In this document: piece by piece, positions 7,704 through 61,357 of the stretch
Position numbering within the stretch: position 1 is the first letter of the stretch
How the letters are laid out: every line of letters begins with the position of its first letter
NCBI GenBank assembly: GCA_022821085.1
Contig: JAJEEG010000006.1
Coordinates: forward strand, 877,330-941,329
Direction: 5' to 3'
Source of the DNA: Candidatus Latescibacterota bacterium
GTDB taxonomy: Bacteria > JAAXHH01
Length of the DNA: 64,000 nucleotides
Translations under genes and position numbers: made by a program
Notes under the pieces: generated by a model
Database searches by the model: none
What the model saw: the letters and a program-made list of their open reading frames with translations, nothing else
What the model was told of the DNA's origin: nothing

Positions 7704-9104
7704 ATGGTGGACAGATCCTACCTTTTCGACGATGACGCCATGCGCGACTTCATCGTGAACGGCTATCACGTGATCAGCGTGGACAAGCCGGTCGCGCTGC
7801 ACGACGACATTTACGAGAAAACGAAGGCAATCATCGACGAAGACGGGAATCCGGGAAACAACCTGTTGCCTCGCGTGCCCGAGATCCAGCAGGTCTACGA
7901 CGACCCCGGGGTGCAGGGCGCGCTGACGAGCCTGCTCGGACCGGATTACGTGATGCACGCCCACCGGCATCCGCACGTGAACCCACCGAACAGCCGGGGA
8001 GGCGCCTGGCACAAGGACAGCTACTGGGGTTACACCAAGGTGCGGGATCACCATCCGCGCTGGATCATGGCCATGTACTATCCCCAGGACACCCCGGTGG
8101 AAATCGGTCCGACGGGGGTAATCCCCGGGAGCCACTACATCGAGTCCCGCGAGGAGACCATCGGCGGGAACGGATCCGTCCCCGACGGGTTTCCCGCAAG
8201 CGGCAAAGCGGGTACCGTTACCATCATTCACTTCGACCTCTGGCACCGGGCGTTTCCGAACCAGACGGACAAGGTCCGCTACATGATGAAGTTCCAGTTT
8301 ACGCGGATGTCGGAGCCCGACCGCCCATGGTGGAACAGGCAACGCGACGATATCGACCTCGGCGACCTGTCGGACGATCCCCGGAGCGCCATGTGGCGGA
8401 ACATGTGGTACTGGCTTGCGGGCAACGGGTCGGCCGGGAGCAGGCAGGAAGACGGGGCACACGTCGAGGCGCTCGCCGGCGACCTGACCCACGAACTGGA
8501 ACAGAAACGCCTGCACGCGGCCTATTCGCTGGCGGAGTACGGGGAGGCCGCCCTTCCCCACCTGCTTGAAGCGCTACAGCACGAACAGGACGAGGTCCGG
8601 CGCGAAGCGTGCTACGGGCTCGGCGCGCTCGGCGAGGCGGCCGTCGAACCACTGGTTCCCCTGCTCGGTCACGGGAACGAACGTGTCCGGGGTTACGCCA
8701 TATACGCCCTGGGAGACATCCGTCATCACAATCCTTCTGTAGCGGAGCGCCTGGCAGGACTGTCAGACGACCCGTCGCCCTTTGTCCGCCAGAACGTGGC
8801 CGATGCCCTGGGCCAGAACAAGCTGGCCGCGGATTCGGCCGTTCCTGCGCTGGTCGGCATGATGAAGGACGAGGATGAGCAGGTGCGTTCCAGGAGTGCC
8901 TACGCGCTGGCCCGCTTCGGGGACGACGCCCAGTCGGCCATTCCGCATCTCGCGGACGCGTGCTACGATGAGAACCGGTACGTGCAGGGCCAGGCCGCCA
9001 TCGCCCTCGAGCAGATCGGCACGCCGGAAGCCCTGCGCACACTGCTGCACTGGCTGCAGGCCTCGCGGTGGTGCCCCCTGACGACGGCGAAGAGCACGTA
9101 CTAG
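7704..9104 (+). CDS. phytanoyl-CoA dioxygenase family protein fused to HEAT repeats
   Basis: A 466-residue, two-part protein. Residues 1 to about 205 are a phytanoyl-CoA dioxygenase (PhyH) type Fe(II)/2-oxoglutarate oxygenase, with H103-x-D105 (WHKDSYW), distal H181 (DLWHRAFPN) and the 2-oxoglutarate arginine candidate R192. Residues about 255-455 form at least five HEAT/PBS-lyase-type helical repeats, each with an A-x-x-A-L-x-x-(L/I)-G pattern (LHAAYSLAEYGEAALPHLLE, RREACYGLGALGEAAVEPL and others). The oxygenase half should hydroxylate an unknown substrate; the repeats probably bind a protein partner or substrate. AAGGAG at 7689-7694 lies nine bases from the ATG, so the start is secure. Confidence 0.88.
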   Translation: MVDRSYLFDDDAMRDFIVNGYHVISVDKPVALHDDIYEKTKAIIDEDGNPGNNLLPRVPEIQQVYDDPGVQGALTSLLGPDYVMHAHRHPHVNPPNSRGGAWHKDSYWGYTKVRDHHPRWIMAMYYPQDTPVEIGPTGVIPGSHYIESREETIGGNGSVPDGFPASGKAGTVTIIHFDLWHRAFPNQTDKVRYMMKFQFTRMSEPDRPWWNRQRDDIDLGDLSDDPRSAMWRNMWYWLAGNGSAGSRQEDGAHVEALAGDLTHELEQKRLHAAYSLAEYGEAALPHLLEALQHEQDEVRREACYGLGALGEAAVEPLVPLLGHGNERVRGYAIYALGDIRHHNPSVAERLAGLSDDPSPFVRQNVADALGQNKLAADSAVPALVGMMKDEDEQVRSRSAYALARFGDDAQSAIPHLADACYDENRYVQGQAAIALEQIGTPEALRTLLHWLQASRWCPLTTAKSTY

Positions 9105-25550: not shown

Positions 25551-27329
25551 ATGAGCTCAGGCAACGGCTGGATCCAGGTGGGTTCCCTCGCGGACGTGCC
25601 GCCCGGGGAATCCCGCGCCGTCAAGATCAGCGAGGGGCGCAGCATCGCCCTGTTCAACGTGGACGGCCGCATCCACGCCACCGACAACCAGTGCCCCCAC
25701 ATGGGGTTTCCGCTGACGCGCGGGGTGGTGAAGGACGGCGTCCTGACCTGCGACTGGCACGGACGCAGCTTCGATCTCGAAGGCGGCGGTTGCTTCAACT
25801 ACGAATGCGACGACCTGGAGACATTCCCGGTCGACATCCGCGGGGACGAACTGTGGGTTCAGGCGGGGGACGCGACCTACAGGCGCCGCGACCAGCACCT
25901 GCAACTGCTCTGGGAGGGCCTCCTGAGTGGGGATTCGTGGACGATCTCCAAGGCCACCGCCCTGCTGCTGTCCGGCGGCGTTTCTGAACACGACATCGTG
26001 CAGTTGATCCTGCGGCACCTGGGTCGTCACGTGGCGTCGGAGCAGGACGCGGGCGGAGGCGGCAACATCGTTTCCCTGCTGGTATCCGGCCTTGAAGTCG
26101 GCAGACGGTACGACGGGGAGGACCGCCTGATGGCCCTTTCGCTCGCCGGCCGCGCGGCGTCGGGCCGGGCGTCCGAGCGGCTCGAAGTCATCACGCTGCC
26201 GCCGCCCGTGAGCTGGGAACAGATCGACGGCTGGGTGCGCATGTTCTCCCGCAACATGCAGGATTTCAGGATTGAACGGTGCCTGCACACGGCTCGCGAA
26301 AACGGCCAGGAAGCACCTATCTTCAAGTTGCTGTTCGAATGTGCCGTGGCCCCGTATTTCCTCGGATTCGCCCGGAACGTGGCCAACCTGGGGGACCTCG
26401 CCCGGGTGGTGGATACCTTCGGATGGGGCGAGGCGTCCGAACTGGTCTGCAACCTCGGCGCCAAGATGGTCGGACGGGGCCGCGACGAGCCGGAGCGTTT
26501 TCACCGGGACGCGGTGCGTTTGCTCAGCGACCTGGCGCCCGCACTCGAATCGCACGACTATGCGGGAAACACCCGGACCGACTACGACGAGAACGCGCTC
26601 GTGGACGCCCTGCTGAGCGTGGACGTAGAGCGGTCATTCGAAGCCGTGGCCAAAGCCCTGCGGGACGGCGTGGCCATCGAGCGCCTCATCACGACCTTCG
26701 TCCTGCTCGCGGCGGACCGCATGGCGCGCACGCCCGTAAACGTCGACGCCGGATGGGGTTCCCTGTCCACCGAGTACAACCTGGCGGCGTCCCTGCGCCA
26801 CGTACACGCCTACGGCGGTCCTGCGGCCGCGGCGAAGGGCCTCTTCCACGCGGCGTGGCAGATCTTCGACAACCGCTGGATCAACATTCCCGCCCGCGCC
26901 CTCGACGAACCCCTTCCGGATCACCCGTCGGATGCGCCGGACGCGGCTTCCGCTTCGGAGCGCATCGTCCATGCCATCAAGTCACTGGATATCCACGGCG
27001 TGGGCGACCAGGTGGTGGGTTACCTGAACAGCGGCTTCGACGGTTCGGAGCTGCTCCGGGAAATCGGCCGGGCGATCCTGTGGGACGATACCAACATGGA
27101 GCTTCTTCCCACGCTGCGCGTCACGTTCAATGAATGGGAAGACGCTGGCGGCGCGGACGCAAGTGGCGCGGCCGCCGCCGGATCGGGACACCCGTCCCGG
27201 AACCAGCTCCTGGTGGGACTGGCCCGGTACGCGACGGACGTGCGCCTGAACAAGAACAGCATGGCATCCATCAACACGGCCATGCGATTTTCGGAGGGCA
27301 GAACAACGGTCGAGGTATTTGACGAGTAG
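25551..27329 (+). CDS. Rieske [2Fe-2S] protein with a large unknown C-terminal domain (paralogue 1)
   Basis: A 592-residue protein. Residues 5 to about 105 are a ferredoxin-type Rieske domain with C48-x-H50-x16-C67-x2-H70 (QCPHMG...CDWHG), a complete [2Fe-2S] ligand set. The remaining roughly 480 residues are mostly helical and unrecognised. Motifs shared with the next gene include ISKA, FGW-(G/D)-EA-x-ELVCNL, AADRMARTPVN (about 387), H-x-AWQ (about 433) and HPSRNQLLVGLAR (about 546). No signal peptide or membrane helix is seen, so it is cytoplasmic. GGAAGGGA precedes the ATG. It stands first in a three-gene operon with its paralogue and a sulfite-oxidase-family enzyme, suggesting an electron-transfer role; the enzymatic function is unknown. 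Confidence 0.85.
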   Translation: MSSGNGWIQVGSLADVPPGESRAVKISEGRSIALFNVDGRIHATDNQCPHMGFPLTRGVVKDGVLTCDWHGRSFDLEGGGCFNYECDDLETFPVDIRGDELWVQAGDATYRRRDQHLQLLWEGLLSGDSWTISKATALLLSGGVSEHDIVQLILRHLGRHVASEQDAGGGGNIVSLLVSGLEVGRRYDGEDRLMALSLAGRAASGRASERLEVITLPPPVSWEQIDGWVRMFSRNMQDFRIERCLHTARENGQEAPIFKLLFECAVAPYFLGFARNVANLGDLARVVDTFGWGEASELVCNLGAKMVGRGRDEPERFHRDAVRLLSDLAPALESHDYAGNTRTDYDENALVDALLSVDVERSFEAVAKALRDGVAIERLITTFVLLAADRMARTPVNVDAGWGSLSTEYNLAASLRHVHAYGGPAAAAKGLFHAAWQIFDNRWINIPARALDEPLPDHPSDAPDAASASERIVHAIKSLDIHGVGDQVVGYLNSGFDGSELLREIGRAILWDDTNMELLPTLRVTFNEWEDAGGADASGAAAAGSGHPSRNQLLVGLARYATDVRLNKNSMASINTAMRFSEGRTTVEVFDE

Positions 27330-27397
27330 GAAGCAGGACCGCAGACTGGGATTATCTGAAAAGTATCAGACACGGATCATCGGAGAGGTAATCGGTT

Positions 27398-29149
27398 ATG
27401 ACGACGGAACAGAATGGATTCGTAAGGGTGGCGGGCGCGGAAGAAGTCGTGGACGGCAAGCCCAGGGCCGTAAAGGTGGAGGGAAGGAGCATCGCCCTCT
27501 TCAGGCACAACGGTTCGATCTACGCCACGGACAATCAGTGTCCCCACATGGGTTACCCGCTCACGAGGGGGCGCGTCCGCAACGGCGTGCTGACCTGCGA
27601 CTGGCACGGATGGAGCTACGACCTCGGCGGGGGAGGCTGCTTCACCGGCGGGTGCGACGACCTGGAGACCTTCCCGGTCGAAGAGCGAAACGGCGATGTA
27701 TACGTAAGTGTCGGCGACGGCGGATCGAAACGGTCCGACGCCCATCTCCTGCTTTTGAAGGAAGGACTCTTTTCCACCGACCAGTGGACCATATCCAAGG
27801 CCGTGGCCATCATGCTGGCGCGGGGCGTATCCGAAGAAGATACGTTGAACCTCATCATCCGTCACGGCGGCCGGCACATCGCCACGGAACGAGGCGCCAA
27901 CGACGGTGGCGGAGAGGTGTCGGATTTCGTCAACGGGATCAAGGTGGCCCGTCAGTACGAGAGCGACGACCGCATCATCCCGCTGACCTTCGCCGCCCAC
28001 GGACTGTCGGGCCGCGCGGGGGACCGGCCGAGCATCCAGCGGCTGCCCGAACCGGTCACCTGGGAGAAACTCGAAGGCTGGATCCGGGTGTTTTCGAAGG
28101 ACAAGAAATGGGAAGGCATCGAGAAATGCCTGATCACCGCCCGGCGGATGGGCGGCCACGACCACGAGATCCTGCCCCTGCTCTTCGTATGCGCCATGGC
28201 GCCCCATTTCCTCGGCAATTCGAACAACCTGCTCAACATCGGCTACATCGCGGAGGTGCTTGAGGAATTCGGATGGGACGAGGCGGAGGAACTGGTCTGC
28301 AACCTGTCGGCCAAGATCCTGGGCCAGGAGCGGGGGCTGCCCGACGAGATCCGGCAGTCGGCCATCGACCGGTTCGTCGCCGACACGGCGACGCTGGATG
28401 CCCTCGCAGACGGGCAGGCCGACGGTTCCGACGTAGCCTTCGACGAAGATGCCTTCGCGGAAGGCCTGGTCAGCGGCGAAGTCGGCCCGACCTTCGGTGC
28501 GGTCACGCAGGCGTTGAAAGACGGCGTATCCATCGATCGGATCGTGACGACCATGGTGGTCCTCGCCGCGGATCGCATGGCGCGCACGCCAGTCAACATG
28601 AACCCCGGCTGGGGGGGACTGGTGCGGGAGATGATGATGGCCTCCGCGGTTCGCAAGGCCCAGCGGTTTGCGGGATACAAAGTCGCCGCCCAGGCCCTGT
28701 ATCACGTCGCGTGGCAGTTCTACGGCGACCGGTGGCTGAACATCACGCACCGGCCCCTGTCCGAGTCCCGGGGAAGTCTGCAGCCGGGAAGCGCGGACGA
28801 GTCCGAAGCGATCGAGAGCGTCCTTTCGTCCATCGAAAAGATCCAGATCAGGGAAATCGGAAGACAAACGCGGGATTACCTGCGCTCCGGCTACTCGGGA
28901 GACGCGCTGCTCAGCGGTCTCGGCCTGGTGATCCTCAAGGACGACAACGGCCGGAACATCCTCTCCACGCTGCGGACGATCTTCGACGAGTGGACCCTGT
29001 GTGCGGATCACCCCTCGCGCAACCAGTTGCTGGTCGGCCTGGCACGCTGGGCCACCGACAGCCGGCGCGCCACGGGCAGCCAGTCCGCCGCGGCGACGGC
29101 CCTGCGGTTCGCCAAGGGACAGACGGCGGTGGATCTGTACGAGGCGTAG
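27398..29149 (+). CDS. Rieske [2Fe-2S] protein with a large unknown C-terminal domain (paralogue 2)
   Basis: A 583-residue paralogue of the preceding protein with the same layout. The Rieske ligands C48-x-H50-x16-C67-x2-H70 sit at identical positions, and the long C-terminal domain aligns throughout (VTWEKLEGWIRVFS, FGWDEAEELVCNLSAK, AADRMARTPVNM, YHVAWQFYGDRWLNI, DHPSRNQLLVGLARWATD). The shared histidines and the AADRMARTPVN core are candidates for catalytic or cofactor-binding positions. The two proteins may form a heterodimer or act in series. The gene is 68 bases after paralogue 1 and 44 bases before the molybdoenzyme gene, with GGAGAGGT before its ATG. Tandem duplication followed by divergence is the simplest origin. 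Confidence 0.85.
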   Translation: MTTEQNGFVRVAGAEEVVDGKPRAVKVEGRSIALFRHNGSIYATDNQCPHMGYPLTRGRVRNGVLTCDWHGWSYDLGGGGCFTGGCDDLETFPVEERNGDVYVSVGDGGSKRSDAHLLLLKEGLFSTDQWTISKAVAIMLARGVSEEDTLNLIIRHGGRHIATERGANDGGGEVSDFVNGIKVARQYESDDRIIPLTFAAHGLSGRAGDRPSIQRLPEPVTWEKLEGWIRVFSKDKKWEGIEKCLITARRMGGHDHEILPLLFVCAMAPHFLGNSNNLLNIGYIAEVLEEFGWDEAEELVCNLSAKILGQERGLPDEIRQSAIDRFVADTATLDALADGQADGSDVAFDEDAFAEGLVSGEVGPTFGAVTQALKDGVSIDRIVTTMVVLAADRMARTPVNMNPGWGGLVREMMMASAVRKAQRFAGYKVAAQALYHVAWQFYGDRWLNITHRPLSESRGSLQPGSADESEAIESVLSSIEKIQIREIGRQTRDYLRSGYSGDALLSGLGLVILKDDNGRNILSTLRTIFDEWTLCADHPSRNQLLVGLARWATDSRRATGSQSAAATALRFAKGQTAVDLYEA

Positions 29150-29193
29150 TTTACGCTGATGCCCGCGTCGAATCGGATGCGAGGTGAACGGAC

Positions 29194-30489
29194 ATGGGCG
29201 CCGATCCTGAGATAAAGCGACTAAGCGCACTCTACCGGGAAGATCCGGATGAGGCCGACCGGCTGCTGTTCGGCCGCAAAGCCCACCCGGATCGTCGGGG
29301 ATTCCTGAAGAATGCGGGCCTTGCGGCCATGGGCGCGCTGGTCGGCGCCGCGATCCCCTTCCACCGAAATATGCCGGCCCACTTCATACCCGTGGTGCTC
29401 GCCTCCGAACCGACGATTCCCGGCAAGGACGGCCTCACGGTCCTCAATGACCGGCCCATGTGCGCGGAGACCCCGCCGTACCTCCTCGATGACGCAATTA
29501 CGCCCACCGAAAGGCACTTCGTCCGCAACAACGGGCTGATGCCCCAGGACCTGGACGCATCCCGCTGGCGTCTGGCGATTGACGGCCTGGTCGACCGCCC
29601 GGTGGCGCTGGAACTCGAGGATCTTGAGAACCGCTTCGAAGTCGTAACCCGTGCGCTCGCCCTGGAATGCGCGGGCAATGGCCGCGCGTTTTTCGACCCG
29701 AAAGCGGACGGCGAACAGTGGACCTACGGTGCGGTGGCCTGCTCGGAATGGACGGGGGTGCGGCTGTCAGACGTACTGGCGGCCGCTGGAATCCAGCGCG
29801 GAGCCATCTACACCGCCCACTACGGCGCCGATACCCACCTGTCCGGCGCGTCGGCCGGACTTCCCATCTCTCGCGGGGTGCCGATCGACAAGGCCATGGA
29901 CGCGCACAATCTCATCGCCTTCGCCCAGAACGGGCAGCCGATTCACCCGTTGAATGGCGGACCGTTGCGGCTGATCGTACCCGGATGGCCCGGTTCCTGT
30001 TCCCAGAAATGGCTGACCCGCGTGGAGATACGGGATAAGGTGCACGATGGACCCAAGATGACCGGCACTTCCTATCGGTTGCCGAATCGGAGTGTCGAGC
30101 CCGGCGAGGCCGTGGACGAGAAAGATTTCCACATCATCGAAAGCATGCCGGTGAAGTCCTTGATCACCCATCCCGCGACGGGCCACAGGACAGCGGACGA
30201 TGAGATCGAGGTGCGCGGTCACGCGTGGACCGGTGAGGGTCGTGTAGATAAGGTTGATCTTTCATTCGATTTCGGCGCGACCTGGAAGCAGGCGTCGCTG
30301 GATGAACCGGTCAACGCCTACGCCTGGCAGAACTGGCGCGCTTCGATCACGTTTCCCGGGAGCGGGTACTACGAGGTTTGGGCCAGGGCAACGGATTCGC
30401 GCGGCATCAGCCAGCCCCACGCCATCGCGTGGAATCCCGGCGGTTACCTGAACAACGCCATGCACCGAATCGCTGTTTACGTGGAGTAG
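29194..30489 (+). CDS. sulfite-oxidase family molybdopterin oxidoreductase, Tat-exported
   Basis: A 431-residue enzyme with an SUOX molybdopterin domain (about 100-300) and a C-terminal dimerisation domain (about 310-430). The molybdenum-ligand cysteine is C159 in ALECAGNGR, and HYGADTHLSGASAGLP and LRLIVPGWPGSCSQKWL are characteristic of SorA/SorT-like sulfite dehydrogenases. A twin-arginine motif R34-R35-G-F-L-K followed by a hydrophobic stretch implies Tat export, with an unusually long 33-residue n-region. It has no cytochrome b5 or heme domain, so it needs an external electron acceptor. GAGGTGA lies upstream of the ATG. It is the last gene of the double-Rieske operon; sulfite may not be the true substrate. 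Confidence 0.88.
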   Translation: MGADPEIKRLSALYREDPDEADRLLFGRKAHPDRRGFLKNAGLAAMGALVGAAIPFHRNMPAHFIPVVLASEPTIPGKDGLTVLNDRPMCAETPPYLLDDAITPTERHFVRNNGLMPQDLDASRWRLAIDGLVDRPVALELEDLENRFEVVTRALALECAGNGRAFFDPKADGEQWTYGAVACSEWTGVRLSDVLAAAGIQRGAIYTAHYGADTHLSGASAGLPISRGVPIDKAMDAHNLIAFAQNGQPIHPLNGGPLRLIVPGWPGSCSQKWLTRVEIRDKVHDGPKMTGTSYRLPNRSVEPGEAVDEKDFHIIESMPVKSLITHPATGHRTADDEIEVRGHAWTGEGRVDKVDLSFDFGATWKQASLDEPVNAYAWQNWRASITFPGSGYYEVWARATDSRGISQPHAIAWNPGGYLNNAMHRIAVYVE

Positions 30490-30553: not shown

Positions 30554-30916
30554 GTGCAAAAAGTTAAGGGATTTGGCGGGTTCTTCTTTCGGGCAAAGGA
30601 TCCAGTGGGACTTGCGAAATGGTATCAGGATCACCTTGGGATCAATCCCGCTCCGACGAACATGGAGATGGCACCCTGGGTGACCGAGTCCGGGGTCACC
30701 GTATTCTCACCCTTCGACGCGGACACGGACTACTTCGCACCGGACAAGACTTTCATGCTGAATTTCCGCGTGGCTGATTTGGAAGCGATGATCACACAAC
30801 TGAAGTCAGCAGGTATCGAGATCAGCCACGAAAGCGAGATGGAGGGCATCGGTCGCTTCGCCCGTATCCACGACCCCGAAGGGAACGCGATTGAGCTCTG
30901 GGAACCCGCTTCGTGA
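30554..30916 (+). CDS. VOC superfamily (glyoxalase/bleomycin-resistance fold) protein
   Basis: A 120-residue protein with the vicinal-oxygen-chelate double beta-alpha-beta-beta-beta layout. It has GFGGFFFRAKDPVGLAKWYQDHLG at the N-terminus, the FMLNFRVADLEAMITQLKSAGIE repeat-2 start and the closing IHDPEGNAIELWEP, which supplies the usual metal glutamate. Members include glyoxalase I, dioxygenases and antibiotic-binding proteins; a short single-unit protein such as this normally dimerises. GTG start at 30554 with AAGGGAT upstream. It lies 64 bases after the molybdoenzyme gene and 25 bases before the HTH gene, probably co-transcribed. Its specific substrate is unknown. Confidence 0.85.
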   Translation: MQKVKGFGGFFFRAKDPVGLAKWYQDHLGINPAPTNMEMAPWVTESGVTVFSPFDADTDYFAPDKTFMLNFRVADLEAMITQLKSAGIEISHESEMEGIGRFARIHDPEGNAIELWEPAS

Positions 30917-32154: not shown

Positions 32155-33021
32155 TCAATGCTCGTTCTTTGTACTCAGTATGGTGTTCTCGGTTTCCTTC
32201 TGCCAGGTTTCGTTGTAGATCAGGGGCCTTGGCCGCGGCGGCGGATAGTCTGGCGGCGGATTATCCGGATCGTTCAACTCGAGACGGTCACGACCACGGG
32301 GCGCTTCGTACCAGTGTTTCTCCCGCTCAGCCGCCTCGATCTCCCTGCGGAGGATGAATTCCGCGTGATCGAAACCGGAGATCGCCGCGTCCGCCAGGAA
32401 CACGCGATGCACCTCGCTGCCGTCCCAGGTGCCCAGGTCCGGCAGGACCACGGGCCCCGTACAGACCTGAAACTCGGCGTCTTCCTCGTTAATATTGATC
32501 AGATCCACGGGAAACTCAAGAGTTACCTGTAAATTCCGACCCGCCTGGTCCGGTTCGCGGTAAGCGATCCTGCCGTTTATGAGGTCCCGGTCCAGCGTGG
32601 CCTGGACTACTTCCCGCGCACTGGTAAGGGTTTCTTCCTTCGGATATTGTCTGATGTCGATTTCGTGACCCTGGAACTGCCGCTCCAGCGGGGTTCCCCT
32701 GGTTTCGGCGGGTTCGGTACTCGGCCGCCTCGAGATAGGGATGCTCAGGCGCCGGCTGAAGGCCATGCGCCATTCGTCGCTGGGGATCTGAAAGAGGTTC
32801 CGCCGGGCGATCGTGTATTCCGTGCGGCAGGGCGCACCCAGGTACATCTCGGTTTGGCGTCCCGTTTCCAGGTCTTCCACGGTACAGGCCGCCTCGAGGT
32901 GGAACCGCACCTGGTAGGCCTGTCCCGGCACACCGACGAACCCGCCCGTATACTTGTACGTGGGGTCGGGCTTCCAGGGCCGGGACCTCCAGTGAAAGGA
33001 GGAGCGATGAAAAGCGATCAT
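32155..33021 (-). CDS. hypothetical protein, 288 aa
   Basis: Not recognised. It is a soluble-looking protein with many beta-type segments (TYKYTGGFVGVPGQAYQVRF; NLQVTLEFPVDLININ), a basic/aromatic N-terminus and a highly charged, proline-rich tail (about 258-280, PPPDYPPPRPRP). No signal peptide, membrane helix or known motif is seen. The coding call rests on length, amino-acid composition and the short gap to the dioxygenase gene downstream in the same direction. The ATG at 33019-33021 has no clear Shine-Dalgarno, so a later start is possible. Confidence 0.6.
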   Translation of the reverse strand: MIAFHRSSFHWRSRPWKPDPTYKYTGGFVGVPGQAYQVRFHLEAACTVEDLETGRQTEMYLGAPCRTEYTIARRNLFQIPSDEWRMAFSRRLSIPISRRPSTEPAETRGTPLERQFQGHEIDIRQYPKEETLTSAREVVQATLDRDLINGRIAYREPDQAGRNLQVTLEFPVDLININEEDAEFQVCTGPVVLPDLGTWDGSEVHRVFLADAAISGFDHAEFILRREIEAAEREKHWYEAPRGRDRLELNDPDNPPPDYPPPRPRPLIYNETWQKETENTILSTKNEH

Positions 33022-56726: not shown

Positions 56727-58034
56727 TTGAGCACAGTAAGCGTATCGATCGTTGATGCCTATCCAGAATACAACATTACATTAACTCAATTCCACAGCCA
56801 GATGAAACGTGATCATCTTAAACAAGCACGCCAGCGTCAAGGCTCACTCCGAATAGCGGAAAGTATACCTGGGCGATTGGTGGTAAAACAAAGTCGGTGT
56901 ACTGCAAGCGTTATACATCCAAGCCCGTTTGATAGCCGGTCGCCGATTCGAAAACTCAATACCGTTTGCCCATATTATACAATGTTTCCATTAAGTTTCC
57001 CATTAGACGAACTTGGAAATGCACAGAAGGGAGAGTGGGTGTTAGATCCGTTCTGTGGTAGAGGGACAACTTTGTTTGCATCACGACTACATGGTCTTAG
57101 GTGTGTAGGAATCGACAGCAACCCAATCGCCGCAGCTATTTCCGCCGCAAAAGTTAGCGACGTCTCGGCGGAAGGGGTCATCGACCTCGCCAATGTACTA
57201 CTTAACAACTCACCGGCACCAGCAGACATACCAACGGGTGAGTTTTGGCGTATGTGTTACCATCCGGCTACACTTCGTAATATATGCGTCCTTCGCGAAA
57301 GACTATTGCAACGATGTTTCACTCAGGAAGAGATAGTGTTACGTGCACTGATTCTTGGGATTCTTCACGGACCACGCTATAAAAGTCAGCCTACCTACCT
57401 TTCAAACCAAATGCCTCGAACGTATGCGACGAAACCCACCGCAGCAGTACGTTATTGGTCTAGGTTATCAACAACGAAACCGCCGAATGTTGACGTTCAC
57501 GATGCGATAGCTCGTCGAGCTAGGTACTCGCTCTCAGCGATGGCACCTCCGGTAGAGGGTGAAGTATACTATGGTGATGCGCGGAATACTCATAATTTGG
57601 TACCGCTCAACAGAAGGTTCAATTGGGTCATTACGTCACCGCCCTACTTTGGAATGCAATCCTATAGACCGGATCAGTGGCTGCGTAATTGGTTCTTAGG
57701 AGGGAGCGACACTGTGGAGTATGGTAGCGAAGGTCAACTATCTCACCACTCCAAATTGTTTACGAGTTCACTGTCATCCGTTTGGAACAGCGTTGCAAAA
57801 CGATGTGAATCTGGCGCTAGACTGATAGTCAGGTTTGGGAATCTGCCTAGCCGGCCCTTAGATGCTGTTAGTGTTATTTGTGAGTCTTTGGAGTCATCAG
57901 AAGTCAATTGGCGAATACTTCGGAAGAAAGATGCAGGATCAGCCAGCAGCGGTAGACGGCAATCGGATCAGTTTGGCAAGGTAAATGGTTCAGCAGCGAC
58001 TGAAATTGATGTGTATGCTAAATTAGAGGGTTAA
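56727..58034 (+). CDS. site-specific DNA methyltransferase (N4-cytosine/N6-adenine class), low-GC cassette
   Basis: 435 residues from a TTG at 56727, or 410 from the ATG at 56802; neither has a clear Shine-Dalgarno, so the start is open. The AdoMet-binding motif I is V-L-D-P-F-C-G-R-G-T-T (about 105-115), followed by GIDSNPIA. The catalytic motif IV T-S-P-P-Y is at about 303-307 (VITSPPYFGMQSY). This order (AdoMet motif before catalytic motif) is the reverse of classic beta-class N4 methylases. About 190 residues between the two may hold target recognition. The gene is A+T-rich (57001-57060 is 28/60 G+C). It ends three bases before the NurA-like gene, so it is a unit with the nuclease and ATPase. 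Confidence 0.82.
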   Translation: MSTVSVSIVDAYPEYNITLTQFHSQMKRDHLKQARQRQGSLRIAESIPGRLVVKQSRCTASVIHPSPFDSRSPIRKLNTVCPYYTMFPLSFPLDELGNAQKGEWVLDPFCGRGTTLFASRLHGLRCVGIDSNPIAAAISAAKVSDVSAEGVIDLANVLLNNSPAPADIPTGEFWRMCYHPATLRNICVLRERLLQRCFTQEEIVLRALILGILHGPRYKSQPTYLSNQMPRTYATKPTAAVRYWSRLSTTKPPNVDVHDAIARRARYSLSAMAPPVEGEVYYGDARNTHNLVPLNRRFNWVITSPPYFGMQSYRPDQWLRNWFLGGSDTVEYGSEGQLSHHSKLFTSSLSSVWNSVAKRCESGARLIVRFGNLPSRPLDAVSVICESLESSEVNWRILRKKDAGSASSGRRQSDQFGKVNGSAATEIDVYAKLEG

Positions 58035-58037
58035 CCC

Positions 58038-59201
58038 ATGTTCGATCCTGAGGAACTACCGGCACTGCGGCAAACTGTACGGGACGCTACCGCGAGAGAT
58101 CGCTGTTTGTTGGATAACCTTCGAGAGGAGGTACAGTTTCTAACAAATGACGTACGGAGCATTAAGCCGCGAACGACTACATCGGTTTCGTTGGTTGCAA
58201 GCGATGGCGGGAACAACAACCTCGTATTTGATCCTTTTCATGTTCAGCTCGTTAGGGTCGTCGATTCGTACGGGGAACAGCTGTGTCTTGATGCTGTAAC
58301 ACCAACGACTGACACGGACATTTTAAGTCGAACACAGTTTGATGAAGATGGCTCACCGCGCACCGCGCTGGGTCGAATGATGTGTGACCTTAACGTTACT
58401 CCGCGTACTTTGAATCAACTAAGCCACATGATACCTGACGGTCGGAAAGTTAGAGAAACACCAGATGAGATATCTCCATCTTGGGTTCTGGTGTACCGAG
58501 ACCTTTGCGAATGGGCAGCATTGTACGACAGGATCTGCTATAGGGATTTTGCGACAAATACCCTATTTGTTCGAGATGGACTGCTGAGAAGCAAGTTATT
58601 TAGAGGTGAGTATTTCATAAACTACCGCAGAAGGATTGACCAAGCCATCATAAGAGCGTATCAGAACACAAAACGAAAGGTCTTATTGGTAGGGCTCGCC
58701 AAGCACAGCAAAGTACTTACTCGGTATAATCTAGCTATGGCAATTGAAGGTACGTTCGACGCGGAGGGTCCTAGGTATGTCAGAGTGCCTAGGTCTTTGG
58801 AATCGAAAGCATATGTATGGCCCGAATACGCTAGAGGAGCAGAAACTGAGGATGACGAAGGAGAAGCGCCAAAGTTTGTAGCCGGCGACATGTATTTCCT
58901 ACGTTTTGGTGATCGTAAAAGCGATCCATTATGGTCAGTCGACGTACTGAGCAGTCAAGCCTCTGATGCTGATGAGATCTTTGGTTACCTACTCGCTGAC
59001 GCCGTCCACGGCTTCCCCGTTCCATTTTACCCGCGATGTCTACAGAAGGCACACGAATACGCAGAAATCGTTGAATTCGATCTTGAAATCCTTCAGGACG
59101 AGATGTTCTTAGCCGTGCGTGGCTTACTTAGCGAAAATGAGATACCTGCACTGGAGGCGTTGCGTCTCCACAGCGACGTTTCGGCTCGGAGGTACGAATG
59201 A
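58038..59201 (+). CDS. NurA-like nuclease
   Basis: A 387-residue protein with NurA-domain hallmarks. An N-terminal aspartate motif lies in VSLVASDGGNN (D56), the second in LFVRDGLLRSK (D180), a lysine region in VLLVGLAKHSKVL, and a C-terminal GFPVPFYPRCLQKAHEYAEIV resembles the usual NurA ending. NurA is a manganese-dependent 5'-3' exonuclease and single-strand endonuclease that works with the HerA translocase. Here the last codons overlap the start of the HerA-like gene (ATGA), so the two are translationally coupled. A central acidic segment (about 270-285, ETEDDEGEAP) is distinctive. The identification is by motif pattern only; it is divergent from archaeal NurA. Confidence 0.75.
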   Translation: MFDPEELPALRQTVRDATARDRCLLDNLREEVQFLTNDVRSIKPRTTTSVSLVASDGGNNNLVFDPFHVQLVRVVDSYGEQLCLDAVTPTTDTDILSRTQFDEDGSPRTALGRMMCDLNVTPRTLNQLSHMIPDGRKVRETPDEISPSWVLVYRDLCEWAALYDRICYRDFATNTLFVRDGLLRSKLFRGEYFINYRRRIDQAIIRAYQNTKRKVLLVGLAKHSKVLTRYNLAMAIEGTFDAEGPRYVRVPRSLESKAYVWPEYARGAETEDDEGEAPKFVAGDMYFLRFGDRKSDPLWSVDVLSSQASDADEIFGYLLADAVHGFPVPFYPRCLQKAHEYAEIVEFDLEILQDEMFLAVRGLLSENEIPALEALRLHSDVSARRYE

Positions 59202-61357
59202 AACTGTTCGATAGGGACACGGTGGCCGGCATTTTTAAAGGTTTCAGTGAAGGTGGTATGGAGTTTCATGCCGATCTCGTATTGCCTTACAGAAATGAGT
59301 TTCAGCGTGCGCCTATGCACGGACAGTTCCTTGTCGTACAGCTCGAAGACGAGTATGAAGCAGTACTAGGACGAGTAACTTCAATATCATCACAAGGGCG
59401 TCTCGCTTCGTCTGCCGGTGAAGATTACGGTATAAGGGCTGTTGCTGAAGAACGCCCGATTCCTGAAGATCTTCGCGAACAGTATCTCAAATACCAGGTA
59501 GACATGAGAGTACTTGGTGTGTTACGAATCGTAAACGGTGACCTTGTATTTGCACCTTCCCATCGTCGCCTTCCACATGTCGGAAGTAAGGTAGCGTTTC
59601 TTACGGATGAGATATTACGTGAAGTCGCAGGTCACAATATCGCTGACGCTGCTGAAATTGGATATCTCGCACTAGGTGAGTTTATCTATGCTTGGGGTGA
59701 CCAAAGCCTTGAACCCGCCCCTTGGATGCAGGTCAGGAGTCCATTGGTGGTTCCGAGGTTTCACGTTCTGGATCTGGCATCGAGACGAACATTTGTATTT
59801 GCACGTGCTGGATTTGGTAAATCAAATCTGGTTAAACTGCTCTTCACCAACCTTTACAAGAACACACCAATGGTGGAGAAACGAGGCGGTAGAAAGGCAC
59901 CGGTCGGAACTGTGATATTTGACCCCGATGGTGAGTATTTTTGGCCAGATGACAAAGGCAGGCCGGGGTTATGCGATGTGCCAGGGTTACAAGACAGAGT
60001 GATAGTATTCACTCCCAAGCAAGGGCCGAGTGACTTTTACAATTCCTTCGTTGCTGGAGATATAAAACTAGATGTCCGTCGGTTACGTCCAAGTGACGTG
60101 ATTTCTATTGCGCTGTCTCCAGAAAAACAAGATCAGCAGAATGTCAGGAAATTGAAGGGAATGAACGATGAGGATTGGTTTGAACTGGTCGACCTGATCC
60201 ATAAGGATGGCAATGGTGCCGATGGAGAATCAGTCATGAGGCTATTGAGGTTAGAGAAAAGCCAAGAGGCTGAAATGGTAGCTGCTCGAGCCAATATGAC
60301 AACGATAGTACGTATGTTACATGATCCAAGTAGCCAGATGTTGGACATGCTCCTTGCATCGCTTCAGGATGGCCATATTTGCATTATCGACGTATCCCAA
60401 ATGCGCGGTGCGCCTGCACTTGTCCTGTCCGGTCTGATTCTTCAGAAAATATTTGACCACAATCAAGAAGAATTCACAAAAGCTCAACCCGAAACTATTC
60501 CAGTGATTGCGGTTGTCGAAGAAGCACAATCAGTTCTTGGCTCTACCGGAAGTTCTGGAGACGGACCTTATGTGACTTGGGTTAAGGAGGGTCGCAAGTA
60601 CGATTTGGGGGCCGTTCTAATTACTCAGCAACCTGGCTCTATTTCAGGCGAGATTCTAAGCCAAGGTGATAACTGGTTCGCATTCCACCTTCTTTCCTCT
60701 GGCGATCTAAGGGCGGTAAAAAACGCCAATGCACACTTCAGTGACGATATCCTTTCGTCTTTGTTGAACGAGCCGATTCCAGGACATTGTGTATTCTGGA
60801 GTAGTGTAGGTGGCAAAAGCTACCCGATTCCCACAAGGGTTTTGTCGTTTGAGGGTCTCTACAAGGCATTGGATCCCAATTACGATAAACCAAGCGTAAA
60901 CACAGCTGCGCAGAACCTGCACCAAAGATTCGCTCAGGAAGTTGAAAACGCTCGACAATCGGTTCAGTACGAGAAACATGAAGAAGAGACAAGCCAAGTG
61001 AAGATGGAGCCAACGCCATACGATGAATCCGCTCCCGACGAAGAGACTGATCCATTGACACTTTACAAAAACGCTGCAATTGACAAATTCAAACGGGATA
61101 CTGAAATACAGAACCGTTTGAAACAAAATGGAGTGCCCTGGAAGGGGGTTCAGGAGTGTCTAAAAGGATACCTGCCAGATGTACTGGATGATAAGGACAA
61201 CATTGCCCATCATCTCGTCCGTAAAGCCATGGATGTGGTATTTGGCGAACAAGAGAAAGCGTGGAAAACTGAAAAACGACCTGCAAAGACTGGGTCAGGA
61301 AACACAACTTGGGTGGTTGTAGTTACACAGGCTAAGGACTCACCTAATAACGCTTAA
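59198..61357 (+). CDS. HerA-like DNA translocase ATPase
   Basis: A 719-residue protein. Residues 1 to about 180 form a HAS-barrel-like beta domain, followed by a HerA/FtsK-type ATPase. Walker A is R-A-G-F-G-K-S-N with K208; IFDPDGEYFWPD is the HerA DxDxEY-like segment; Walker B is VIAVVEEAQSVL near residue 440; ITQQPGSISGEILSQ is the sensor region. An acidic, probably flexible linker (about 585-625) precedes a C-terminal helical tail. HerA forms hexamers that pump DNA and activate NurA. No Mre11 or Rad50 gene is nearby, unlike in archaeal herA-nurA operons. The start overlaps the NurA-like stop by four bases. A line at 60481-60540 is 28/60 G+C. Confidence 0.87.
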   Translation: MKLFDRDTVAGIFKGFSEGGMEFHADLVLPYRNEFQRAPMHGQFLVVQLEDEYEAVLGRVTSISSQGRLASSAGEDYGIRAVAEERPIPEDLREQYLKYQVDMRVLGVLRIVNGDLVFAPSHRRLPHVGSKVAFLTDEILREVAGHNIADAAEIGYLALGEFIYAWGDQSLEPAPWMQVRSPLVVPRFHVLDLASRRTFVFARAGFGKSNLVKLLFTNLYKNTPMVEKRGGRKAPVGTVIFDPDGEYFWPDDKGRPGLCDVPGLQDRVIVFTPKQGPSDFYNSFVAGDIKLDVRRLRPSDVISIALSPEKQDQQNVRKLKGMNDEDWFELVDLIHKDGNGADGESVMRLLRLEKSQEAEMVAARANMTTIVRMLHDPSSQMLDMLLASLQDGHICIIDVSQMRGAPALVLSGLILQKIFDHNQEEFTKAQPETIPVIAVVEEAQSVLGSTGSSGDGPYVTWVKEGRKYDLGAVLITQQPGSISGEILSQGDNWFAFHLLSSGDLRAVKNANAHFSDDILSSLLNEPIPGHCVFWSSVGGKSYPIPTRVLSFEGLYKALDPNYDKPSVNTAAQNLHQRFAQEVENARQSVQYEKHEEETSQVKMEPTPYDESAPDEETDPLTLYKNAAIDKFKRDTEIQNRLKQNGVPWKGVQECLKGYLPDVLDDKDNIAHHLVRKAMDVVFGEQEKAWKTEKRPAKTGSGNTTWVVVVTQAKDSPNNA

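Follow-up and report, generated by a model that had tools for sequence, protein, structure and literature searches.

Within the window, by which we mean the whole stretch of 64,000 nucleotides of Candidatus Latescibacterota DNA that was analysed, two genes for Rieske proteins, here called RieA and RieB, lie directly downstream of polA and are followed by the gene of a molybdenum enzyme of the sulfite oxidase family. The genes and features of the locus are:

25551..27329, + strand: RieA, 592 aa, a Rieske [2Fe-2S] domain (about residues 5-105) followed by a helical, questin-oxidase-like C-terminal domain
27398..29149, + strand: RieB, 583 aa, with the same architecture as RieA
27731..29149, + strand: C-terminal domain of RieB (residues 112-583), all helical, with 8yxs as its nearest solved fold
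29194..30489, + strand: sulfite-oxidase-family molybdoenzyme, 431 aa, with a Tat signal and without a heme or FeS domain
30554..30916, + strand: VOC/glyoxalase-like protein, 120 aa, located 3' of the molybdenum enzyme

The VOC/glyoxalase-like gene is also found downstream of the molybdenum enzyme in several members of the window's genus. Elsewhere in the window, a phytanoyl-CoA dioxygenase-like domain is fused to HEAT repeats (7704-9101), a 288-aa protein with no Pfam match adjoins a PhyH dioxygenase gene (32158-33021), and a low-GC block (48-52%; 56727-61354) that encodes a DNA methyltransferase-like protein, a 387-aa protein and a HerA-type helicase has the appearance of a mobile defence island.

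RieA and RieB are paralogous along their entire length, with 47% identity across 590 aligned columns. Both Rieske domains are recognised by PF00355 (E 1e-17 and 3e-20; 63.8 and 72.3 bits against a cut-off of 20.3), and the ligands C48, H50, C67 and H70 of RieB are matched by the same residues at the aligned positions of RieA, the CxH...CxxH pattern being invariant in an alignment of 45 sequences. The preliminary description, which had seen two Rieske proteins with all four ligands at identical positions and a shared C-terminal domain, agrees with the data in coordinates, strands and the 44-bp gap to the third gene, and the C-terminal blocks that it listed (AADRMARTPVN, HxAWQ and HPSRNQLLVGLAR) are indeed present and conserved. 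Neither Pfam nor NCBIfam matches anything past about residue 105 of RieA or RieB, which leaves about 475 helical residues, and the C-terminal part of RieB has no sequence match in the PDB. The Rieske domain itself is similar to those of the soluble Rieske ferredoxins NirD, HcaC, BphA3 and CarAc (Foldseek TM 0.8-0.9, CxH...CxxH), which lack the additional 475-residue domain. The Rieske non-heme iron oxygenases, by contrast, share with RieA and RieB the arrangement of an N-terminal Rieske domain and a putative oxygenase domain in one chain (in their alpha subunits), but the ring-hydroxylating catalytic domain is absent from RieA and RieB in Pfam searches, and their C-terminal domain is all helical rather than of the helix-grip type.

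The pair has relatives well beyond its own phylum. Full-length relatives of RieB with 24-28% identity are encoded on plasmids of haloarchaea, Bacillaceae, cyanobacteria, rhizobia and Burkholderiaceae, where they are annotated merely as Rieske proteins, and a third member is encoded in the genome from which the window derives. The core members of this family share about 40% identity with each other, and more distant branches were recovered by whole-genome searches, while the viral collections contained no relatives. These comparisons of sequence place RieA-RieB as a divergent branch within a widespread family that has no name and includes archaea, cyanobacteria, Bacillaceae and rhizobia. In the members of the wider family that were run against Pfam and NCBIfam, the Rieske domain alone was recognised, and PF14027, the questin oxidase profile, had no match in six distant members (E up to 10). 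The genes next to distant members are scattered, with genes for heme and for ribonucleotide reductase in the haloarchaea and alpha/beta hydrolases in proteobacteria, and no common pathway emerged from them. Three unrelated bacteria have a gene for an alpha/beta hydrolase immediately upstream of their Rieske-family gene (L016:5302-5976; L084:5041-5850; L086:525-1514), a neighbour that might be expected where an oxygenase produces esters or lactones. Literature searches combining Rieske with questin oxidase or with Poribacteria returned nothing on this Rieske family, nor did we find biochemistry on any of its members; the component families are known, but neither a fusion of a Rieske and a questin-oxidase-like domain nor its paired descendants without iron ligands was found described.

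A relationship of the C-terminal domain to questin oxidase and BTG13 was proposed from the histidine pattern of the core family, prior to any structure comparison. In BTG13 the iron is held by four histidines and a carboxylated lysine. BTG13 is termed an atypical non-heme iron dioxygenase in a reference given in PMC12186474. For AflY (8yxs), the description is likewise that of a non-heme iron dioxygenase. Members of the distant branch of the Rieske family have their motifs in the order WG/SS-H, GHxLIY, THxLT and HxxK, and the equivalent order in questin oxidases is N-H, H-x-L-I, LLHxxT and EHxxK; the contexts are also alike (THGLIY and FHGLIR, ATHRLTFASAVR and FIHTVTGPAAVR, AHALKTT and EHAIKLT), such that four histidines and the HxxK motif correspond in both order and surroundings. 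Profile comparisons point in the same direction: the family without RieA and RieB aligns to the questin oxidases over 217 columns with P 0.0025 (reversed control 0.32), the core alone with P 0.0019 (reversed control 0.27), and an hmmsearch with a questin profile matches the Priestia and Metabacillus members at E about 1.5e-5 within a set of 26 sequences. Directly compared with the questin oxidases, the RieA/RieB domain alone gave a null result (P 0.13; A3 vs A4, 0.47), PF14027 had no match in RieA or RieB (E up to 1), and global hhalign gave no signal, with an uninformative circular-shift null.

The AlphaFold2 model of full-length RieB is confident (pLDDT 87.9, pTM 0.84); because the Rieske domains swamped the Foldseek search with the full-length model, the C-terminal domain was modelled separately, which yielded an all-helical fold with pLDDT 89.7 and pTM 0.89. 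In the PDB the sole sensible match of this model is AflY (8yxs), with a probability of 0.75, TM-scores of 0.40/0.42, 447 aligned columns and an rmsd of 8.6, the other matches listed having probabilities of at most 0.28 and TM-scores of at most about 0.21. Since a TM-score of 0.40 is below the usual threshold of 0.5 and the Foldseek E-value of 0.75 is not significant, this modelled resemblance to AflY is suggestive rather than conclusive. Could the C-terminal domain instead be an unrelated helical binding scaffold, with the likeness to AflY and the histidine motifs arising by coincidence? Every single homology test is statistically weak, and background matches do arise among helical proteins, as illustrated by the viral Foldseek library, in which nothing useful matched and a decoy reached a probability of 0.75 at a TM-score of 0.28. 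On the other hand, AflY stands apart from the remaining PDB matches by its TM-score, its family had been named ahead of the Foldseek search, and four histidine motifs together with HxxK occur in equal order and in similar contexts. We therefore regard a coincidental likeness as rather unlikely and consider, from the individually weak tests taken together, that the domain is quite probably homologous to that of questin oxidase, AflY and BTG13. The earlier statement that the domain cannot be assigned to a family holds for Pfam and NCBIfam, but gives way to a probable questin-oxidase/AflY-like fold, for which the structure prediction provides a confident model and a closest, though not significant, match. 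Compared with the questin oxidase/AflY/BTG13/PaD family (PF14027; 8yxs, 7y3w, 8z4q), RieA and RieB would share this fold but bear an N-terminal Rieske domain and lack the aligned iron-ligand histidines.

The fate of the iron site was followed in an alignment of 166 sequences, from which a neighbouring ORF of locus L087 was left out and in which the row label of L060 was corrected. The distant branch has histidine at sites 2, 3 and 4 and the HxxK motif in all five members, with the fourth histidine upstream, and the core branch has histidine at sites 2, 3 and 4 in 18/18 sequences. In the 140 RieA and RieB sequences, no histidine is fixed at these three sites and the residues vary: site 2 is mostly D/Q/H/R in RieA and R/N/D/E in RieB, site 3 is T/M/R and E/D/R, and site 4 is E/Q and D/N/E, respectively, the RieA/RieB pair of the window having R/N, T/R and E/N at sites 2, 3 and 4. 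Instead, RieA and RieB both fix H156, C265, E411 and H538 (100%), H436 (98%) and H160 (95%), positions at which the core mostly differs, although H436 is common to two thirds of it. If the alignment, which has an identity of about 26% and is ungapped around site 2, is correct in this region, the ancestral iron site is gone from RieA and RieB. With the iron-site histidines lost, neither protein is expected to act as a canonical iron oxygenase.

A single scan across genome contigs found 74 RieA-RieB loci, distributed over Poribacteria, Latescibacterota/Gemmatimonadota, Gammaproteobacteria and two Acidobacteria. In all 72 assessable loci RieA precedes RieB on one strand, L060 and L080 having been left out of the count because the stretch ends too close on the left; for these two genes the co-occurrence proposed earlier as a check thus extends outside the genus of the window. 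In many Poribacteria an ankyrin-repeat gene is located between RieA and RieB, and genes for ankyrin-repeat, WD40 and MORN-repeat proteins crowd around and between the pair at several poribacterial loci (L026, L058, L063 and others). In a few genomes (L070, L072 and G011:C33:25290-27046) a frameshift or an assembly error has broken RieA into two open frames. In the tree, RieA and RieB together form a clade with a support of 0.98 and RieB a clade with 0.965, while the RieA clade is weak (0.11); from these clades the duplication appears older than the spread over the host phyla. That the neighbourhood is incidental, with housekeeping-type redox proteins placed by chance downstream of polA, would fit with neighbours that vary by phylum (ankyrin, WD40 and MORN repeat genes at poribacterial loci, a transketolase gene in an acidobacterium), but the conservation of the pair is absolute and the molybdenum enzyme recurs as a neighbour of another paralog (see below), so that we consider this improbable.

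The third gene, 44 bp downstream of RieB, had been described as a molybdenum enzyme of the sulfite oxidase family with no built-in electron acceptor; it matches PF00174 (E 3.5e-50, 170.3 bits) and PF03404 (E 2.4e-21, 76.6 bits), both above their cut-offs, and has no heme or FeS domain. It resembles the sulfite dehydrogenases SorA, SorT and SoxC in its molybdenum-binding and dimerisation domains and its Tat signal (TIGR01409, 19.2 against a cut-off of 16.7 bits), and its conserved cysteine lies in CAGNGR, aligned to CSGNSR of SorA. However, FVRYH and PGYYGTYW of SorA are replaced by FVRNN and PGWPGSCS, the scores are far under the equivalog cut-offs (SorA 248/600, SorT 198/570, SoxC 223/420 bits), and there is no cytochrome partner gene beside it in the window. 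The enzyme is present in 10/10 genomes of the window's genus that were searched, no more than 70 bp downstream of RieB in six; in three more, the two genes share a strand and lie within 5 kb of each other, and in the last genome the enzyme is encoded on a separate contig. The gap between RieB and the enzyme, which measures 4.7 kb in G002, resembles an insertion hot spot in that the inserts, among them a Sel1-repeat gene and a Fic gene, differ among close relatives (L008:9899-11194, L009:9854-10876). Beyond the genus of the window, no molybdenum enzyme was seen beside RieA-RieB in the loci read, and the three-gene operon of the preliminary description is therefore confined to that genus, with the pair standing without an adjoining molybdenum enzyme in other phyla. 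In Poribacteria, an enzyme 43% identical to that of the window is associated with another subfamily of the Rieske family: among 58 genomes with both genes, it lies at most 250 bp downstream of the Rieske-family member on the same strand in 27, at most 5.4 kb from it in 9 and on other contigs in 22, these Poribacteria representing two genera of one family and hence few independent events. Since both the paralog and the phylum differ from those of the window while the neighbourhood recurs, a functional link between the molybdenum enzyme and the Rieske family is plausible.

This recurrence, the close spacing in the window's genus and the missing cytochrome partner are also what would be expected if RieA and RieB served the molybdenum enzyme as dedicated electron acceptors or donors, in the way of the Rieske subunit of arsenite oxidase, and reached the periplasm together with the enzyme by means of its Tat signal. 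AioAB provides a precedent for a molybdoenzyme with a Rieske protein, but its molybdenum enzyme belongs to a different family, and the Tat signal is carried by AioB, while here it is found on the molybdenum enzyme. Furthermore, the external electron acceptors of many sulfite-oxidising enzymes are a stated gap (PMC4760952). However, a twin-arginine motif is present in 16/16 molybdenum enzymes checked and an N-terminal hydrophobic stretch in 0/140 RieA and RieB proteins. This distribution predicts that the Rieske proteins and the molybdenum enzyme reside in different compartments, which argues against direct contact; co-export with the molybdenum enzyme, as a putative route, would reconcile the two. 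In addition, most family members and most RieA-RieB pairs have no adjoining molybdenum enzyme, and a plain acceptor would make the helical domain superfluous, so that we view a role as dedicated redox partners as doubtful. As for the shared redox pathway suggested for the three genes, the recurring neighbourhood makes a functional link plausible, while the predicted compartments and the restriction of the trio to one genus speak against a simple pathway of three components.

The best explanation of the whole, to which we assign a probability of roughly 55%, is that RieA and RieB form an obligate Rieske/questin-oxidase-like pair that has lost the ancestral iron and acts as a non-canonical redox protein, with the molybdenum enzyme as a separate entity. 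The two proteins would be the subunits of a heteromer, each combining a Rieske domain of the ferredoxin type with a helical relative of questin oxidase, AflY and BTG13. The Rieske centre probably has a low potential, as judged from its sequence, and by analogy with Rieske oxygenases would supply the helical domain with electrons one at a time. The ancestral form probably bound one iron, through four histidines and a lysine in one branch and three of those histidines in the large core branch, and in the distant and core relatives the helical domain probably activates oxygen at this putative single iron. In RieA and RieB, where the iron-site histidines appear to have given way to a new invariant set of residues common to both, the pocket was most likely repurposed within a heteromeric redox protein, for a different cofactor or substrate; alternatively, the pocket may be inert and the pair kept as an electron relay. 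The downstream molybdenum enzyme would be a separate, Tat-exported enzyme that is functionally linked to the pair. A more far-reaching proposal is a new class of Rieske-dependent oxygenase, in which the Rieske domain of distant members would supply an iron site of the questin oxidase type; RieA and RieB would have arisen from such proteins as an obligate heterodimer, with a putative non-ancestral cofactor pocket of residues such as H156, H160, C265, E411, H436 and H538 and with a dedicated molybdenum enzyme. This proposal is tentative, and we consider it less probable than the obligate iron-less pair.

To our knowledge, all known Rieske oxygenases use one catalytic fold. If the proposed relationship is true, the combination of a Rieske domain with a questin-oxidase-like iron domain would represent a second catalytic solution beside this fold, and the questin oxidase type would gain an inbuilt electron source. 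For RieA and RieB, the question becomes why two paralogs, both without the iron site, stay paired across phyla, and the recurrent neighbourhood of the molybdenum enzyme makes the Rieske family a candidate partner for an enzyme of the sulfite oxidase family.
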